DNA of 33,819 nt from Candidatus Binatia bacterium (GTDB lineage: Bacteria; Desulfobacterota; Binatia; Bin18), in assembly GCA_022824615.1 (NCBI GenBank), contig JAJDZM010000115.1, forward strand, positions 1 through 33,819, written 5' to 3'. A program made the position numbers and the translations under genes. This document shows positions 1,543 to 24,137 of the stretch, one piece after another; the first letter of the stretch is position 1, and each line of letters begins with the position of its first letter. A model generated the notes under the pieces. The model had not been told where the DNA came from. It worked only from the letters and a program-made list of their open reading frames with translations, and ran no database searches.

Positions 1543-2844
1543 ATGCCCAAGCAAATCCATCTCGCCTGCTTCGCCCTCTTTACCCCGGCTCCGCATATGC
1601 CGCTGTCGTGGATCTATCCGCGCGAGAAGATTCGTCACAAATGGTATGAGGGCGAGTACTGGGAATCCGTGGTCCGTACCCTGGAGCGCGGCAAGTTCGA
1701 CATGCTGTTTTTCGCGGACAGCCTGGCGGGGGGCACGCAGCCCGATCAGGTGCGCTACGCCATCCAATTCCCCAGCCATGACCCGGTCTCCCTGATAACC
1801 TATCTCTCGGCAGTCGCCAAAAAACTCGGCTTTGCCGTCACCATGTCTACGACCTTTTACCCGCCGTTTCTGCTGGCCCGGACCTTATCGACCCTCGATC
1901 ATCTCACCAAGGGCCGGATCGGCTGGAATATCGTGTCCTCGACCTCAACGGCCGAGGCCAGAAACTTCGGGCTGGAGAGCCTGCCAGCGCATGACGACCG
2001 CTATGAGCGCGCCGACGAATATATGCAGGTATGCTACGGCCTGTGGAACAGTTGGGACTCGGATGCCGTGCAAATGGACATGGAGCACAAGGTCTTTGCC
2101 GACCCGTCAAAAGTCCACCGCGTCGACTTTCAGGGGCAGTGGTATCGGGTCCAGGGGCCGTTTACGGTCATCCCCTCTGCCCGCCGCCGGCCGTTTCTGT
2201 TTCAGGCCGGCCAGTCGGACCGGGGTCGGGCCTTTGCCGCCCAGCACGCCGAGGGCATCTTCAGCGCCGCTCGCGGCGTCAAGCAGATGCGCGCGTTCTG
2301 CGAGGATATTGCCGGGCGGGCGGAACGCCTGGGCCGCAATCCGGACGACATCCCCATCATGTGGGCCGGCCAGCCGCTGGTGGCCGAGAGCGCGTCCGAG
2401 GCGCGCGAACGCTGGGCCGCCATTCGCGCCCGGATTCCGCTCGAAGCGTCCTTGGCCCAGATGTCGATGCACTTCAATCTCGACCTGTCTCGGTTTGATA
2501 TTGACGTGCCGGTCCAGGACTTGGACGTGCCCGGCACCAGGGGCCTGTTCGAGATGTATCAGAAATACGACGTGAACATCACGCTGCGTGATATCGCCAA
2601 AACCTATCTGACCGGCAGCGATACCAACCCGCTGGTCGGCACTCCGTCGCAGGTGGCGGACGCCATGCAGCACTTTCTCGAAGAAGGCGGCGGCAACGGG
2701 TTTCAGATCACACCGCCGTTCTACGCGCCCGACTATTATGAAGACCTGGTGAATCTCCTCGTCCCGGAGCTCCAGAGACGCGGAGTGTATCGGGACGACT
2801 ACACGGGCACGACCTTACGCGAGCATCTGTGCGGGTCGGTATGA
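1543..2844 (+). CDS. FMN-dependent monooxygenase, NtaA/SnaA/DszA-type (LLM class)
   Basis: A 433-residue TIM-barrel flavin monooxygenase of the bacterial luciferase-like superfamily. NtaA/SnaA/DszA enzymes use reduced FMN from a partner reductase and O2 to attack chelators, sulfones and related compounds. Family features seen are the N-terminal strand (IHLACFAL), the GRIGWNIVSS segment near residue 127, the AGQSDRGRAFAA phosphate-binding segment near 223, and the closing GTPSQVADAM block near 370. Length is normal. A GAGGA ribosome binding site lies about 8 bases before the ATG. No flavin reductase gene is adjacent, so FMNH2 must come from elsewhere. The natural substrate is unknown. A second LLM enzyme of a different subgroup lies about 1.3 kb downstream on the other strand. 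Confidence 0.9.
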   Translation: MPKQIHLACFALFTPAPHMPLSWIYPREKIRHKWYEGEYWESVVRTLERGKFDMLFFADSLAGGTQPDQVRYAIQFPSHDPVSLITYLSAVAKKLGFAVTMSTTFYPPFLLARTLSTLDHLTKGRIGWNIVSSTSTAEARNFGLESLPAHDDRYERADEYMQVCYGLWNSWDSDAVQMDMEHKVFADPSKVHRVDFQGQWYRVQGPFTVIPSARRRPFLFQAGQSDRGRAFAAQHAEGIFSAARGVKQMRAFCEDIAGRAERLGRNPDDIPIMWAGQPLVAESASEARERWAAIRARIPLEASLAQMSMHFNLDLSRFDIDVPVQDLDVPGTRGLFEMYQKYDVNITLRDIAKTYLTGSDTNPLVGTPSQVADAMQHFLEEGGGNGFQITPPFYAPDYYEDLVNLLVPELQRRGVYRDDYTGTTLREHLCGSV

Positions 2845-2870
2845 AAGGCGCTGTGATAAAAAATAGAGTA

Positions 2871-2892
2871 TAGAGACGCTCAGCGGCCTCTA
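2871..2892 (-). terminator. Possible intrinsic terminator of the DUF2283 gene
   Basis: On the minus strand a TAGAG/CTCTA stem with an inner GCC/CGC-like extension overlaps the stop codon of the DUF2283 gene. About seven bases later comes a run of six T residues (2858-2863 on the plus strand as A). The short stem and the spacer before the T run make this a weak call. Confidence 0.3.
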
Positions 2893-3108
2893 CTTTCCCG
2901 CAGGAGTAACAGCCTCGTATTCCACCGGCAGGAGATTTCCTAGATTGACATGTTTGGAGGCGTCCAGAATCTCTATCCCAACGATTTGGTCACCTTCACC
3001 CATATCTAAGACAATATCCTCGGACAGCCGTCTGTTCATCACCTGACGCTTTTGATCGTCGAGGCGTATATACAGAAGATCAGACCTCGCGTTGTACTGA
3101 ATCCGCAT
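2890..3108 (-). CDS. DUF2283 family protein
   Basis: A 72-residue protein with the classic DUF2283 pattern: a short strand followed by D-x-LYIRL near residues 9-16, then an acidic DIVLDMGEGDQIVGIEILDAS core. These small proteins are widespread, often next to toxin-antitoxin or DUF4258 genes, and have no defined activity. The ATG at 3108 is preferred because GGGAG sits 8 bases upstream; an upstream ATG at 3129 would add seven residues (MAGGRNL) without a ribosome binding site. No partner gene is seen beside it. The family call is confident; the function is unknown. Confidence 0.82.
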   Translation of the reverse strand: MRIQYNARSDLLYIRLDDQKRQVMNRRLSEDIVLDMGEGDQIVGIEILDASKHVNLGNLLPVEYEAVTPAGK

Positions 3109-3213
3109 TAGGTTTCTCCCACCTGCCATAAAAGACGTAGACCGTCACAGTGATAAGCAGGAGGATCAATTCTGATTTCCATTTATCTTAGGGCAGCTGA
3201 ATTATCGATTTGA

Positions 3214-3232
3214 GCCGCTAAATAGCAGCGGC
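3214..3232 (-). terminator. Hairpin after the selenoprotein gene
   Basis: A perfect 6-bp stem (GCCGCT/AGCGGC) with a 7-base loop lies 9 bases past the stop codon of the selenoprotein gene on the minus strand. There is no U-rich tail, so it may be a weak terminator or an mRNA 3'-end stabiliser. Confidence 0.3.
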
Positions 3233-3241
3233 ATTATGACT

Positions 3242-4051
3242 CTACGCCGCCTGAGTGTTCTCGGGCAACTCCATATACGTCTCGCGCCACTCGCCGGTTT
3301 CGTCCCACCGAAAGGGCGTCTGCAGCGTCGTCAGCGGATAGCGCGCGGTCTCAAGCAGGTCGAGGGCCATGCCGACGATGGCCCGCTGCATGTCCTTATC
3401 TCCCGGCTTGCCGCACGGATTGCCGAGCGGGAAGTCGGTAAAGACAAAGCGCGGCACCCCGCACTGCTCAACAATATCGCGGGCCGAGCCGAGGACGACC
3501 GTTGGGATACCGTGCGCCTCAAGATGTCGGGCAACCAGACTCACGGTCTGGTGACACACCGGTCACAGGGCGACCAGCAGGGCAATATCGACCCCATCCT
3601 CACGACAGAAGTCGAGCACGGCCGGGGCATCTTCGTGCATAGTCTGCCGCGCACTATAGACCGTGGGTACGCCGTAAAAGCGCGGCGACAGGCTGCCGAG
3701 CCGGCCTTCGGCCACGTACTCGTTTACGCGGCGGACCGGCAGGAAGGTTTCGATATCGTCGGTATGGGTGGCTGTTTTGTGCCACGACAGATGACGGGTA
3801 TAGAGCGCCTCGGGGGCAGGTCGGGTAGCCGCGGTATACCGGCTGCGCTTCCGCCCGCCCTGCAAATCCGGGGCCGCGGTGGTGACTAGAGCCACCCGGC
3901 TTTCGCTCAGCGGTTTGGCCAGCGGCGTGAACGGCGCGTCCGGGTTGGACGCCCAGCGGTAGGGATTGCCGTAGCCCTTCGCCAGGTAGAATTCACGCGA
4001 TTTGTCGATATAGCTGACAAAGCCGCGCTGGGTCGGATCGAAATCACTCAT
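3242..4051 (-). CDS. Selenoprotein, glycine/betaine/sarcosine/D-proline reductase GrdB/PrdB-like (in-frame UGA = Sec163)
   Basis: Read through the TGA at 3563-3565, this is one continuous 269-residue protein. Upstream residues 1-162 and downstream residues 164-269 are in the same frame and both look like the substrate-reducing subunit family of clostridial-type amino acid reductases (GrdB/PrdB). The TGA falls in LLVAL-U-PVCHQTVSL, giving a U-x-x-C redox motif (Sec163, Cys166) followed by the family's CHQT-SLVAR-LE block. A hairpin fitting a bacterial SECIS element starts 10 bases behind it. The start at 4051 has a GAGGGGAG ribosome binding site 7 bases upstream. Neither GrdA, nor a proprotein-type subunit, nor sel genes are in the window, so the true substrate is unknown. 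Automated calling would split this gene in two. Confidence 0.85.
3534..3565 (-). promoter_or_regulatory. SECIS element and Sec-coding UGA
   Basis: On the minus strand the UGA (3565-3563) is followed after 10 bases by a perfect 7-bp stem (ACCAGAC/GTCTGGT, 3552-3546 with 3540-3534) closed by a five-base loop CGTGA. The loop has a G at its second position and lies 18-22 bases behind the UGA. Bacterial SECIS elements bound by SelB have this geometry: a short stem with a small apical loop bearing an early G, placed roughly 16-37 bases downstream of the codon. The structure is seen directly; SelB binding is inference. Confidence 0.72.
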
Positions 4052-4168
4052 TGCTGTTCTCCCCTCATCGCGGAAGGCTACGGTTGGGGTTGGGAGATAA
4101 ACCAACCGGCTCCCGCTTGCAGGAGCCGATCAGCCAGATGAATCCCGGCCCTGAGCCGAGTCGAAGGG

Positions 4169-5518
4169 TTAGGCGGCCATCAGTTCGGCCAGAGCATCGG
4201 CATCGCTGACGGGACCGGGCTTGCCGTTGGCCAGGGGCCGCGAGCCGGGTTTTTGCGTAAACGGGTCAACCAGCCCCAGCGTCTTGCCGTGCTCGCGCAT
4301 GGCCGGAATGACATCGCGGTTGAGCAGCTCCAGACAGCGCATCCGATCCTTGGCCGGCACCGGGCCGTCCAGCCAGAAGGAGAAGATGCCCGGCCGCAGG
4401 ATATCCTGGATTTTCTTGAGCTTGGGAATCACGTCGTCGGGCGTACCGGCGATCATGACCATATCCTTGAGCACACCGGGATAGCTGTCGTAAATGGTCT
4501 TTTTGACGGCCTCGATCTCTTCGACCGTCGTTTCCCCGCCCTCACCGTACAGCGGTCCGGCAGAGGCATTGACGCCGAAATTCGTCCGGGCCAGCCGGCG
4601 GGTGGCCGCCTTCGAGTTATAGCCCGGCGGGAACATCCACTCGGGCCGGGCAAAGTGGGCAAAGGCACCGCCGTACAGAATACGCTTGCCCATTTCTTCC
4701 GCGCGCTCCTGGCTATCGCAGACCATGACCGGTTGCAGATAGCCGAAATTCTCCGGTCCGGCCTGATAGCCTTCGCGGGCGGCAGCTGTATTGTAGAAAT
4801 CCCACAGCTCCAGGGTGGGTTCGAGCCGGGTGGCGAGGGCCACATAAGGGTAGCGGTTCTTGGCGCACCAGGCCACGGTTTCCGGGCTGATGAGACCGGG
4901 AATCCAGAAGGGAGGATGCGGCTCCTGGACGGGCAGCACCCAGGGATTGACGTGGCGGAAGTGAAAGTGTTTGCCCTCATACCGAAACGGGCCGGGCTTG
5001 GTCCACGACTGGACGATAAAGTCGATGCCCTCTTCAAAGTACTCGCGGTTAAAGGCCGGGTTGGCGTTATTGGCGAGTTGTTCGCTGCCCGCACCACGGA
5101 CCCAGCCGGAGATCAGGCGGCCATTGGAAATCAGGTCGATCATAGCCAGCTCTTCGGCCAGTCGGAGCGCATTCGAGACGGTCGGAACCGGGTTACCGAG
5201 CAGGGCCATTTTGACCCGGCTGGTCGCCTTGGCCAGGACCGAGGCTTCGACATCCATGACTGCGCCCAGGCAGAAGGGATTGGCATGGTGCTCGTTGAGC
5301 ATGATGCCGTCAAAGTTCATCAGCTCCTGGTCAGTATAGATTTTCTCGTCGAGATACTGGTTGAGCAACCGCGCGCCGTGCTGGCGATCAAAATAGCTGT
5401 TCGGCGTCCCGAAAAAGCTGCGTTTGCGAATAATCTCGTTTTCGAGGTCGCGATATTGCTCCGGATGTTCCTCCGGGTCGTAGTGATACGCGCGTTCCGT
5501 AAACCACATGAAATGCAT
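4169..5518 (-). CDS. LLM-class flavin-dependent oxidoreductase (luciferase-like)
   Basis: A 449-residue member of the bacterial luciferase-like monooxygenase superfamily, from a different branch than the NtaA-type enzyme at 1543. Seen are the N-terminal strand MHFMWFTERAYHYDP, the metal-free substrate pocket segment FDGIMLNEHH near residues 68-77, NPVPTVSNALRLAEELAMIDLISNGRLISG across residues 107-136 in pieces typical of the family, and a late GTPDDVIPKL block near residue 359. AGGAGG lies 7 bases before the ATG at 5518; a longer frame to 5575 lacks such a site. It is on the same strand as the selenoprotein gene, 117 bases upstream, so both may be one transcript. The substrate is unknown. 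Confidence 0.88.
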   Translation of the reverse strand: MHFMWFTERAYHYDPEEHPEQYRDLENEIIRKRSFFGTPNSYFDRQHGARLLNQYLDEKIYTDQELMNFDGIMLNEHHANPFCLGAVMDVEASVLAKATSRVKMALLGNPVPTVSNALRLAEELAMIDLISNGRLISGWVRGAGSEQLANNANPAFNREYFEEGIDFIVQSWTKPGPFRYEGKHFHFRHVNPWVLPVQEPHPPFWIPGLISPETVAWCAKNRYPYVALATRLEPTLELWDFYNTAAAREGYQAGPENFGYLQPVMVCDSQERAEEMGKRILYGGAFAHFARPEWMFPPGYNSKAATRRLARTNFGVNASAGPLYGEGGETTVEEIEAVKKTIYDSYPGVLKDMVMIAGTPDDVIPKLKKIQDILRPGIFSFWLDGPVPAKDRMRCLELLNRDVIPAMREHGKTLGLVDPFTQKPGSRPLANGKPGPVSDADALAELMAA

Positions 5519-5594
5519 AGTCTGTCCTCCTGCTGTGAAAAGACTAGAAATATAAGAGACGGGCGGCGGAGGCAAGAGGAAATCTGAACGAGTA

Positions 5595-5611
5595 GTGGCT
5601 CAGTTTGAAAT
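5595..5611 (+). repeat. Solo copy of a terminal-repeat sequence (GTGKCTCARTTTGAAAT)
   Basis: This 17-base stretch and its flanks (AGTAGTG, then TTTTCC further on) match the left end of the putative mobile element at 17018 over roughly 28 bases with few differences. The same core is present inverted at 17249 and 18566. No inverted partner is visible near this copy, so it looks like a solo end or relic in the intergenic region before the lipoprotein gene. Confidence 0.55.
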
Positions 5612-5720
5612 CTTTTCCTTACAGAATTTCCTAGTTTAAGGTCCTGATTCTCGACCGTTCTTGACAACCTTTTTCCTCTTCTGCATTTTTACGCCCATTC
5701 TGTACCGGGGAGGAAACTGC

Positions 5721-6119
5721 ATGAGGAGATGGAAATATCTTGGACTGATCGGGCTTCTACTTATCCTGCACGGCTGTTCGGTCGGGATGGCCATGTCTGG
5801 ACGGCCTGACCCGAATACCGGCGCATTGCGGGTCGGGCAGGCCCGCGATGAAGTCTTGTTGCATTTGGGACAGCCGACACAGACCTATGCGACTGAGACG
5901 GGCCGGACGGATACCTTCCATCTGCAACGCGGGAACCAGCCCTCCACGGGCCGGGCGGTCGGCCATGCGGTCATGGATGTCCTGACACTAGGAGCCTGGG
6001 AGATCATTGGGACGCCGGTGGAAGGGTTTACAGGCGAAAAATTCACGCTCTCGGTCTCCTATGATAAAGAAGAACAAGTCACAAAGATTACGACCTCGCC
6101 AGGAGTTCCTGAATTTTAG
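5721..6119 (+). CDS. BamE/SmpA-like lipoprotein
   Basis: A 132-residue lipoprotein. The N-terminus is basic, then hydrophobic, ending in ILHGC with the lipidated cysteine at position 19. Residues about 38-55 (RVGQARDEVLLHLGQPTQT) match the start of the SmpA/OmlA (BamE) fold, where a helix followed by an LG-x-P turn precedes two strands. A glycine-rich segment (GRAVGHAVMDVLTLGAWEIIGTPVEG) follows and resembles small outer-membrane-associated lipoproteins more than true BamE, so a role in the Bam complex is not claimed. GGGGAGG lies 7 bases before the ATG at 5721; an in-frame upstream ATG at 5661 would destroy the signal sequence. It implies a Gram-negative envelope. Confidence 0.75.
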   Translation: MRRWKYLGLIGLLLILHGCSVGMAMSGRPDPNTGALRVGQARDEVLLHLGQPTQTYATETGRTDTFHLQRGNQPSTGRAVGHAVMDVLTLGAWEIIGTPVEGFTGEKFTLSVSYDKEEQVTKITTSPGVPEF

Positions 6120-16943: not shown

Positions 16944-17017
16944 TGTTTCCTCCTTTGGAATGCCGACAGTTTGAGGATGCAAACGACCATTTGTCAAGGA
17001 CAGGACCCCCCCTTCGG

Positions 17018-17037
17018 GTAGTGTCTCAATTTGAAAT
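17018..17037 (+). repeat. Left terminal repeat of the cassette
   Basis: It shares GTGTCTCA-R-TTTGAA with the copies at 5595, 17249 and 18566. Together with the inverted copy at 17249-17264 it also bounds a 247-base gene-free segment that could be a MITE-like sub-element. Confidence 0.6.
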
Positions 17038-17248
17038 TTTTCTCCTCGTCACCGGTTTTGTCGCCCCATTTCTCCTCTCGGTATTGACGGCCCATTGTTT
17101 TCGGCGCTCGTGCCATGATTTCCGTTATTTTCTATCAATTTTGATAGGGACAGGAGCGGCAGAAGTGTGTATAGACCTTTTCTCAGTGAGGCTAAGACAC
17201 TGAGGCCGGCGGCGTCACAGTCCCCCATGCGAGAGCGAAATCCCAAGG
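17038..17248. other. Gene-free left part of the cassette
   Basis: No convincing gene is seen between the NTF2-like gene (starts 16943) and the first secreted-protein gene (17308). The segment includes a short AT-rich stretch around 17120-17150 with an ATTTTCTATCAATTTTGATA palindrome-like part. It may hold the promoter of the secreted-protein gene; no reliable -35/-10 pair could be picked. Confidence 0.4.
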
Positions 17249-17264
17249 ATTCAAACTGAGACAC
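17249..17264 (-). repeat. Internal inverted copy of the terminal repeat
   Basis: ATTCAAACTGAGACAC, identical over 16 bases to the right terminal repeat at 18566-18581 and inverted relative to the left end. It lies 44 bases before the first secreted-protein gene. Confidence 0.6.
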
Positions 17265-17291
17265 CACTGATAGATGAGTGATGAAGACATG

Positions 17292-17453
17292 AGGAAAGGC
17301 TGAACCCATGGATATATTAAAGCTTCAGTGTGAATCTCTGCTGTGTCCTCGAGGATGGCGGAACCTCCGGCGCCTGACAGGGACCGTGCTCAGCCTGGGC
17401 TGCCTGTTCCTTGCGGGGGTCCTCCTTCCCCAGGCAGTGCGGGCAGACGCGGA
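17292..17453 (+). repeat. Leader duplication, copy 1
   Basis: This 162-base block covers the ribosome binding site, start codon and signal-peptide codons of the first secreted protein. It matches 17988-18149 without gaps at all but about 12 positions (roughly 93%, counted by eye). The similarity drops sharply on both sides. Confidence 0.8.
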
Positions 17454-17700
17454 CGAATGGGAAATGTTCGAAATGTGCAGGAGGTGTGTCAATACCCAAC
17501 CCGGGAATTGGCATTTCTTTTTTTGTACCAATCCAATCGGCGGGGGAGAGGGGGTCGGTGAGGGCCGTTGTAGGCGCAAGCTATGGTTCGGCGACACCAC
17601 ACAACGCGACACGCGAGAGCTTTGTCAGGAGGCGGGTTTCGAGAGCATAAATTGGAGTAGAACCGAGGAACAGTGTGGCCTCCATTTTCGTGGGAGGTAG
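17308..17700 (+). CDS. Secreted six-cysteine protein, paralog 1
   Basis: A 130-residue protein of unrecognised family. Residues 1-23 form a basic amphipathic lead, 24-41 a hydrophobic segment (VLSLGCLFLAGVLL), and a cleavage site is plausible at VRADA (near 46), so export is likely. The mature part has six cysteines (57, 60, 73, 88, 106, 123), starting with C-R-R-C-V and including a FGDTTQRD segment. The same six cysteines, almost equally spaced, occur in the second paralog 700 bases on. AGGAAAGG precedes the ATG by about 8 bases. The paired cysteines suggest disulfides or metal binding in the periplasm or outside; the role is unknown. Confidence 0.65.
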   Translation: MDILKLQCESLLCPRGWRNLRRLTGTVLSLGCLFLAGVLLPQAVRADADEWEMFEMCRRCVNTQPGNWHFFFCTNPIGGGEGVGEGRCRRKLWFGDTTQRDTRELCQEAGFESINWSRTEEQCGLHFRGR

Positions 17701-18003
17701 TAAACCAGAGGGAGAGGGAGCCCATCGAGACGAACCCCGTCTCCAATATACGCTTCCGTATTGCAATGAGGACTCAGGGGAGAGACGAGCGATACAAGAG
17801 TTTGTGAAGAAATAGAAGAGAAAGGAGGGTGCCCAATGGACCGTATTCGGTTTTGCGAGTTTGGATGGCTCTGAGAGCATCAATCGCGATTTTGCGAAAA
17901 GACGGGCGAAAGTAGTAGGTCCTGTGCGCCGTTCTGGACGATATGGGGCCTCCCCAGCAGTGTCACGATCAGAAGATCGCCATCAAAAGGAAAGGATGAA
18001 CCC
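17701..18003. other. Spacer between the two paralogs
   Basis: 303 bases without a full gene. It contains a very short frame at 17836-17874 (12 codons, MDRIRFCEFGWL) behind an unusually strong AAAGGAGGG ribosome binding site, which may be the stub of a lost third gene or a leader peptide. Nothing else was recognised. Confidence 0.4.
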
Positions 18004-18149
18004 ATGGATATATTAAAGCTTCAGTATGAATCTCTGCTGTGTCCTCGAGGATGGAGGAACCTCCGGCGCCTGATGGGGGGCGTGCTCAGCCTGGGCTGCC
18101 TGTTCCTTGTGGGGGTCCTCTTTCCCCAGGCCGTGGTGGCAGACGCGGA
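17988..18149 (+). repeat. Leader duplication, copy 2
   Basis: This is the direct repeat of 17292-17453, offset by exactly 696 bases and gap-free. It spans the ribosome binding site through the signal-peptide codons of paralog 2. Confidence 0.8.
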
Positions 18150-18531
18150 GAGGGAAAGGGATCATCAACTGAAATATGAGCAGAAGGTCCAAGAAATCTG
18201 GGATGAAAGGGCGAAGAGCCTCGACCCCGAAAGTTGGAAAAGGTACGACGAGTGCAGAAAATGTGTAACGAGAAAGCCAGGATGGTGGTATTACTATGCT
18301 TGCGTCAGTTCAACCGGCGATCGCGAAAGAAGCGAAAGAGTGGGAGGGGCGAAATGCCTCAGATTTAGTTTCTGGGGTGACACCAGCAGGAAAGACATGA
18401 AAAGGCATTGCCAGGCACTGGGCTATGGGGATGTTGTCCTCCAACGACTAAAAGAGGATGACTGTGCGATAGCGTGGTTTCCTGGGATCCGCCACGGTTT
18501 GTGGGAGAGATATATCCATGAATTCGACTGA
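18004..18531 (+). CDS. Secreted six-cysteine protein, paralog 2
   Basis: A 175-residue relative of the protein at 17308. The first 48 residues are almost the same (signal peptide ending near VVADA). A charged helical insert of about 27 residues (ERERDHQLKYEQKVQEIWDE and on) follows, then the same cysteine frame at 84, 87, 100, 118, 136 and 154, with C-R-K-C-V, P-G-W-W and FWGDTSRKD matching paralog 1. A longer C-terminus (FPGIRHGLWERYIHEFD) is unique. Away from the leader the DNA of the two genes is much less alike. No known family is recognised; export is inferred from the leader. Confidence 0.65.
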   Translation: MDILKLQYESLLCPRGWRNLRRLMGGVLSLGCLFLVGVLFPQAVVADAERERDHQLKYEQKVQEIWDERAKSLDPESWKRYDECRKCVTRKPGWWYYYACVSSTGDRERSERVGGAKCLRFSFWGDTSRKDMKRHCQALGYGDVVLQRLKEDDCAIAWFPGIRHGLWERYIHEFD

Positions 18532-18565
18532 CAAGAGACAGATCCCTAAGCCCGAAACTCACAAG

Positions 18566-18585
18566 ATTCAAACTGAGACACGACT
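18566..18585 (-). repeat. Right terminal repeat of the cassette
   Basis: Inverted partner of the end at 17018, followed at once by CCCCTTCGG, which also precedes the left end. Confidence 0.6.
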
Positions 18586-18687
18586 CCCCTTCGGTCTCCT
18601 TTGCCCAGGGAAGGCCAGTTGTGATATGGGTAGGTCGCCTGCGTGACCGCTCAGGCGGTCACGGAACAAATCTGGGAAGGGGAAAGT

Positions 18688-19948: not shown

Positions 19949-19976
19949 GTAGGGGCAATTCATGAATTGCCCCTAC
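19949..19976. repeat. Perfect 28-bp palindrome of the GTAGGGGCAA type
   Basis: Each half reads GTAGGGGCAATTCA (5'-3') and the two halves are exactly self-complementary with no loop. The same half-sequence recurs around 24065-24088 and 26715-26742, always between genes. It is a short intergenic palindromic repeat of REP-like character. Confidence 0.8.
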
Positions 19977-20029
19977 GGCATTCACTTTGATATGTCCCTA
20001 CCGCTCTGAAACGGAGAGGAGTCAGTACG

Positions 20030-24064: not shown

Positions 24065-24137
24065 GGGCAATTCCTGAATTGCCCCTACGTTTCTCGTTCC
24101 CTCGCCCCTTGGGGGAGAGGGCTAGGGTGAGGGGTTC
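24065..24137. repeat. Intergenic repeats: GGGCAATTC palindrome and CCCC-TAGCCCTCTCC type
   Basis: Positions 24065-24084 form a 9-bp perfect palindrome (GGGCAATTC/GAATTGCCC, loop CT) continuing as CCCTAC, a degenerate copy of the repeat at 19949. Behind it, 24102-24137 has the CTCGCCCCTTGGGGGAGAGG type stretch with GGGCTAGGGTGAGGGG, a kind of dispersed intergenic repeat common in GC-rich environmental genomes. The two together fill the spacer between the two MoeA genes. Confidence 0.6.

Follow-up and report, generated by a model that had tools for sequence, protein, structure and literature searches.

Positions 17017-18585 of the window, the whole stretch of 33,819 nucleotides analysed here (contig C163 of the draft genome G000; 4.98 Mb in 308 contigs, 89.6% complete), are most probably a mobile insertion cassette: a non-autonomous, MITE-derived unit with ends of the IS1-family type of Binatia, moved in trans. 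The original prediction of a non-autonomous cassette is borne out by empty sites, an 8-bp duplication, and inverted pairs with duplications in the genus. The insertion is precise, its target is single-copy in relatives, the same cassette stands elsewhere in the congener G005, and a family of elements shares its ends and its duplication size. Gene-carrying transposition is thereby cleanly documented, empty sites included, in an uncultured lineage. In the scheme that we favour, two tandem genes would have been preceded by a 252-bp MITE and followed by a second right end, a solo one. A trans-acting transposase would have ignored the MITE's own right end and paired the MITE left end with the outer right end; the whole 1569 bp would have moved between a SnoaL-like gene and a CoA-transferase gene, with duplication of CCCCTTCG.

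Limits, ends and target site of the cassette

The left end of the cassette reads GGTAGTGTCTCAATTTGAA and the right end AGTCGTGTCTCAGTTTGAA. The inverted ends had been predicted to agree at 16 of 18 bases, and they do so in register (17018-17035 against 18567-18584); with the outermost base included, G at 17017 and an unmatched A at 18585, the agreement is 16 of 19. An exact 8-bp duplication, CCCCTTCG, adjoins the cassette on both sides (Table 1). The longer string CCCCTTCGG, noted earlier as lying directly outside both ends, is present as placed, but the duplication measures eight bases and not nine: the ninth flank base, a G, belongs to host DNA on one side, and on the opposite side it opens the left end of the cassette. 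Among 25 short duplication-bearing elements of the family described below, the next base agrees in 8 on the one side and in 8 on the other, roughly what chance would give. The family therefore duplicates 8 bp, and the cassette unit runs from 17017 to 18585 (1569 bp).

Table 1. Coordinates, in the window, of the cassette features and of one related end
Feature	Position	Strand	Description or basis
Solo end, outside the cassette	5591..5609	+	Motif search; congener comparison
Target-site duplication CCCCTTCG, left copy	17009..17016	.	Sequence, G003 empty site, family duplication size
Left terminal inverted repeat GGTAGTGTCTCAATTTGAAAT	17017..17037	+	Window sequence and end-motif search
Complete MITE copy forming the left part of the cassette	17017..17268	+	Aligned to seven further copies (5 genomes)
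Inner right end (the MITE's own), putatively skipped in the window insertion	17250..17268	-	End-motif search
Upstream-plus-leader repeat, 162 nt, first copy	17292..17453	+	93% to second copy
Gene 1	17308..17700	+	130 aa, predicted signal peptide, six-cysteine mature part
Remnant (3' part) of a gene similar to the 567-aa one on G000 contig C52 (76%)	17726..17915	+	Sequence comparison
Upstream-plus-leader repeat, second copy	17988..18149	+	Sequence comparison
Gene 2	18004..18531	+	175 aa, predicted signal peptide; its six cysteines align with the gene 1 set
Outer right terminal inverted repeat	18567..18585	-	Window sequence and end-motif search
Target-site duplication CCCCTTCG, right copy	18586..18593	.	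Sequence, G003 empty site

With up to two mismatches, GTGTCTCARTTTGAA has four copies in the window against 0.09 expected (100 shuffles, maximum 1); with up to one, it has 12 copies in the G000 genome and none for the reversed control. Both extra copies of the end that had been noticed within the window were confirmed, one as the inner right end and the other as the solo end. The solo end itself has one mismatch, and its form, GTGGCTCAGTTTGAA, is present in four of six congeners (G001, G003, G005 and G006). The comparison of its place covered the G005 and G001 copies and shows the same place for G005 only, where neighbouring bases and gene match; the inner bases differ in the G001 copy. The cassette was also expected to lack a transposase, and neither of its ORFs scores above the cut-off of any Pfam family, transposase or other.

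Pfam identifies the genes flanking the site as a SnoaL-like gene and a class III CoA-transferase gene, and these two stand side by side without the cassette in all six congeners found. The empty site with a single CCCCTTCGG that the original prediction proposed to look for is present in G003, where it reads CCCCTTCGGTCTCC and contains one exact copy; the other five congeners are empty as well, with no insert exactly at the cassette site and with diverged local bases. Homologous genomes carrying the same genes in the same place, the finding that would have told against mobility, were sought and are absent among the six congeners. One of the six, G005, has the empty site on contig C86 and, on contig C21, a cassette 93% identical over window 17128-18586. 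The C21 cassette lacks the first 111 bp (window 17017-17127), a different end abuts there, and no target duplication was recognised at it, so that this place is less clear than the one in the window. It lies near RND-pump genes, which in G000 are found on contig C52.

G001 and G003 carry different insertions about 40-60 bp beyond the empty cassette site, that of G003 starting with an end of the same family, so insertions may favour this intergenic gap. Insertions in it occupy two loci. One (L070 in G003, 2028-5725) has a pair of family ends and a 1081-aa ORF with a leader-like stretch; in the other (L080 in G001, 3088-5619), a predicted secreted protein is interrupted by a gene that we take, from its motif, to be IS630-like.

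A family of short and long elements with the same ends

The cassette ends, which are close to RGTAGTGTCTCAGTTTGAA, belong to a MITE family of the genus. Inverted pairs with both ends at no more than 3 mismatches in 19 and 60-3000 bp apart number 71 distinct cases (56 short, 15 long), counts that describe the family and not genome density, as the stretches were fetched mostly for holding ends. The search for the end in inverted pairs, suggested at the outset, thus found them across the genus, and with 8-bp target duplications: allowing one mismatch, these occur at the predicted offset in 25 of the 56 short and 6 of the 15 long pairs, and shifting one side by 1 to 4 bases (eight other offsets) gives duplications in none or one pair each. 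The remaining 31 short and 9 long pairs have no recognisable duplication. The end pattern, searched as four exact spellings, occurs in 9 of 16 genomes of the taxonomic family (two of its seven genera) and, across the phylum, in 3 of 395 sampled genomes, G000 being among these three. Positions 17017-17268 align with seven other MITE copies at a mean column identity of 68% and are themselves a MITE copy, so that the cassette consists of a MITE, two genes and a second right end.

Several observations concern repeats of this genus more generally. At a G001 locus (L095, 1990-4993), the left end of a family element appears to be duplicated in tandem together with its flank, at a spacing of 1860 bp. 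Two G000 contigs, C52 and C128 (L227 and L228), start with two different ends of one short MITE type; opposite MITE ends with matching flanks (GAGAGGAG) suggest that these contigs may be neighbours split at the repeat. Genes that we presume to encode TonB-like receptors start 18-23 nt outside family ends in G002, G001 and G004 (L071, L076 and L087, respectively). A palindromic, REP-like repeat, GTAGGGGCAATTCATGAATTGCCCCTAC, lies at window 19949-19977 and 24065-24089, and among the matches listed it occupies about three dozen congener places, about half of them in G003.

Six long elements carry duplications, the window cassette included. That of G003 (1173 bp) holds one alpha/beta hydrolase gene (PF00561), and its empty site, with a single GAATAGAT, is present in G001 and G002. 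The G004 element (2232 bp, duplication 7/8) holds an ORF of 634 aa with a leader-like stretch some 100 residues from its start; its product has no Pfam match and is a predicted secreted protein, and relatives of the gene stand beside family ends at two other loci (L067, and L078/L088, which are one orthologous place). In G002, an element of 873 bp has no convincing gene, and two other places in the same genome carry a repeat of part of its passenger (82% over about 210 bp). The G001 element (1144 bp) has ORFs resembling an IS630 transposase, a likeness assumed from a familiar motif, and an element of 710 bp in G028, from another family of the class, carries a DUF1622 gene. Three of the six (window, G002 and G004) have a MITE as left part with its own right end inside, and it is on this shared plan that the end-skipping model is based.

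Two other histories of the locus were weighed against one-piece transposition. It is extremely unlikely that these are ordinary, vertically inherited genes and that the repeated end serves as a terminator or as a regulatory box between genes. Such a box would fit the proximity of ends to genes, an ATG-started ORF of at least 100 aa lying within 120 nt and reading away at 87 of 176 ends against 988 of 4000 random places. However, the empty sites of all six congeners contradict vertical inheritance, as does the same cassette elsewhere in G005, and the occurrence of 8-bp duplications at one offset only argues against a box; the ends, examined with this alternative in mind, are transposon ends and not merely regulatory. 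A very unlikely course of events is that the MITE inserted first and the genes arrived later by homologous recombination between MITE copies, with no transposition in one piece. The complete MITE with its own right end inside the cassette agrees with this sequence of events, and the family is dispersed enough for recombination. Nevertheless, it is the outer ends that bear the exact duplication, the 8 bases that follow the inner right end (GATAGATG) do not match, and recombination is not expected to put CCCCTTCG at the outer junction. The G002 and G004 elements are likewise duplicated at their outer ends and not at their inner ones, which again favours transposition of the whole unit.

Passenger genes

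Gene 1 has no Pfam match at E up to 1. The sole match of gene 2, to Conotoxin (E 0.079), is below the cut-off and was taken as chance. Leaders and mature parts differ in age: dS is 0.067 between the two leaders and 2.4 between the two mature parts, so leader copying between the genes is recent and their mature parts are old. At 32% identity, the latter keep all six cysteines. The remnant between the genes, similar to a C52 gene, indicates that its cargo is chromosomal DNA that has been captured and rearranged; on C52, the 567-aa gene precedes a different large protein with the same kind of leader. Of the two mature parts, compared between G000 and G005, the one of gene 1 is conserved (dN/dS 0.24); the one of gene 2 shows dN 0.072 against dS 0.028, with 18 differences in window 18328-18427. 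These values hint, in one genome pair only, at fast change of gene 2 between species.

Relatives of the cargo proteins occur in 2 of 58 genomes, G000 itself and G005. A search of assembled-genome contigs (a set that may omit the genome of the window) returned one locus, that of G005; no relatives were found in viral contigs, nor in plasmids, which were searched with DNA as well. Against solved structures the best matches reach only E 0.1 and 0.17, and the predicted structure has a mean pLDDT of 59.7, too poor for a fold search.

Judged by their hydrophobic leaders alone, both proteins are probably secreted. The original prediction regarded them as secreted mobile cargo and as an unusual passenger; their carriage on a transposed cassette stands, secretion is a leader-based prediction, and a secreted or exported passenger has precedents: MIC231A1 of Bacillus cereus has a D-stereospecific endopeptidase gene as passenger (PMC3913671), and TnXax1 of Xanthomonas has genes for a type III effector and a lytic transglycosylase as cargo (PMC6304161). 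After removal of homologues, a strongly hydrophobic N-terminus was counted in 13 of 34 ORFs within 60 nt of an end and in 10 of 63 further out (Fisher p 0.014 at 60 nt, uncorrected; rank test p 0.053). Other cuts give p 0.023 (45 nt), 0.031 (80 nt), 0.37 (30 nt) and 0.27 (100 nt). A general tie between family ends and genes for exported proteins is thus weak, and it is treated as a lead because the distance cuts were chosen after the data had been viewed.

It is conceivable, though rather doubtful, that the IS1-derived MITE family of Binatia is a working gene-capture system that operates by end skipping, and that the captured genes include exported proteins, here a pair of six-cysteine secreted proteins known from two genomes only. 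If so, a transposase that bypasses the MITE's own end would move any genes up to a second end, and the recently copied leaders on older mature parts, together with the fast change of gene 2, would fit an antagonistic or recognition protein. The cassette suggests how a tiny, gene-less repeat may become a gene carrier through use of a second end. One origin of mobile insertion cassettes thereby becomes testable, the plan being seen in three of six long duplication-bearing elements, and looking between such ends is a way to new proteins of unknown function.

The mobiliser and comparison with known systems

The mobiliser of the cassette is likely an IS1-family transposase, which would act in trans, and the family ends are probably of IS1 type. 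Transposase profiles served as the basis for this family assignment. An IS1-type transposase is physically joined to such ends in two cases, an element on G000 contig C28 and a remnant in G028. The C28 element (L192, 2742-5393; 2652 bp) lies within identical 21-bp ends, GGTAGTGCGTCAATTTGAAAT, which match the left end of the window cassette at 17 of 19 positions and the consensus at 16 of 19; its flanks agree at 6 of 8 bases. Its transposase (PF03400, E 3.4e-9; NF033558, E 1.9e-11, below cut-off) has an interrupted frame, being split over two overlapping frames in a +1 relation. The element also holds, as passengers, a helix-turn-helix gene and a DUF4258 gene, which look like a toxin-antitoxin pair. 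The strongest link of the ends to IS1 is the remnant (L172). The 710-bp cassette of G028 is flanked by an exact 8-bp duplication, and one of its ends matches the consensus at every position; directly inside that end stands a C-terminal piece of an IS1 transposase gene, 77.6% identical in DNA over 214 bp to a full IS1 copy of G028.

Support from the wider set of transposases is uneven. PF03400 is above its cut-off for the L177, L201 and L192 proteins, and NF033558 matches three of four IS1-type proteins, all three under its curated cut-off. PF03400 matches occur in 4 of 11 genomes, with no copy at E 0.001 in six of the seven genomes of the genus; a more sensitive four-row IS1 profile, built partly from the G000 copy itself, has matches in 10 of 16 genomes of the family and in 5 of 7 of the genus, several of them fragments. 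No intact transposase with family ends was found in the genus, and the one intact congener transposase examined (G004 contig C89, 295 aa) has only a single, poor end candidate nearby. When the 160 bp internal to each of 176 ends were compared with five subterminal IS1 references, no DNA similarity rose above the score limit, ten loci holding IS1 copies being excluded from the ends; the L172 remnant was missed there because the 160-bp references stop short of the G028 transposase gene. Shared codons reading ...ISN-stop at the ends were considered as a trace of transposase ancestry and rejected, as they come from the end sequence itself.

The IS1595 family also makes 8-bp duplications, and its transposases are common in the genus (PF12762 matches in seven of seven genomes, over the cut-off in six). 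It is nonetheless unlikely that one of them moved the cassette. End-like sequences do lie within about 700 bp of the gene at at least 4 of 20 IS1595 loci (L110, L111, L121 and L122), as at position 127 of L121 (G004 contig C420), where a lone GATACTGTCTCAGTCTGGAA stands 132 bp before an IS1595-type transposase ORF. However, none of these lone sequences has a partner across the gene, whereas a duplication-flanked inverted pair was found de novo at 9 of the 20 loci, beginning with GGGAATTA in seven and with CGGAAT in two; none of the nine has GGTAGTGTC ends. In addition, the transposase remnant next to the DUF1622 cassette end is of IS1 type. IS1595 was accordingly rejected as mobiliser on the different ends at the 9 of 20 resolved loci, a rejection against which the lone end-like sequences count, and an IS1-family transposase is retained as the likely one.

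In the IS1 family, ends begin GGT, duplications are 8-9 bp long, and two frames joined by a -1 frameshift are typical, though not universal. The elements described here resemble this family in their transposase profile match and short inverted ends. They differ from it in lacking the -1 frameshift documented for IS1 (PMC3196728): three intact transposases (L177, L188 and L201) are single-frame proteins of 284, 292 and 295 aa, and the overlapping frames of the C28 copy are in a +1 relation. Like bacterial IS-derived MITEs, window 17017-17268 and 25 other pairs (144-443 bp, with 8-bp duplications) have such ends; unlike MITEs, the window unit has genes as cargo, and the right end that it uses is a second one lying further out.

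The window cassette shares three attributes of mobile insertion cassettes, namely IS-type inverted repeats, a target duplication with empty sites, and passengers without a transposase. The cassettes of MIC231, qnrD and qnrS2 likewise have inverted ends, a duplicated target and a passenger gene in place of a transposase. Unlike MIC231, the window cassette has ends of putative IS1 type, and its left part is a complete MITE that shares its left end; IS231 belongs to the IS4 family. Such cassettes are an established kind of element (PMC3913671, PMC5444012, PMC3129680), and MIC231A1 is described as mobilised in trans by the IS231A transposase (PMC3913671). The Aeromonas plasmid pAC3 has a cassette holding a MITE and a passenger gene (PMC5444012). 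It is like the window cassette in uniting the two in one cassette, but the pAC3 MITE is bounded, within its cassette, by 17-bp ends of its own and by 4-bp duplications, whereas the window MITE shares the cassette left end. Titles and abstract openings of the papers listed, a weak guide in which subscription journals are thinly covered, mention no IS1-derived or MITE-led mobile insertion cassette with a bypassed end, and none in Binatota. The window cassette departs from the established ones in its putatively IS1-type ends and in its MITE-led plan, in which the inner end would be bypassed.
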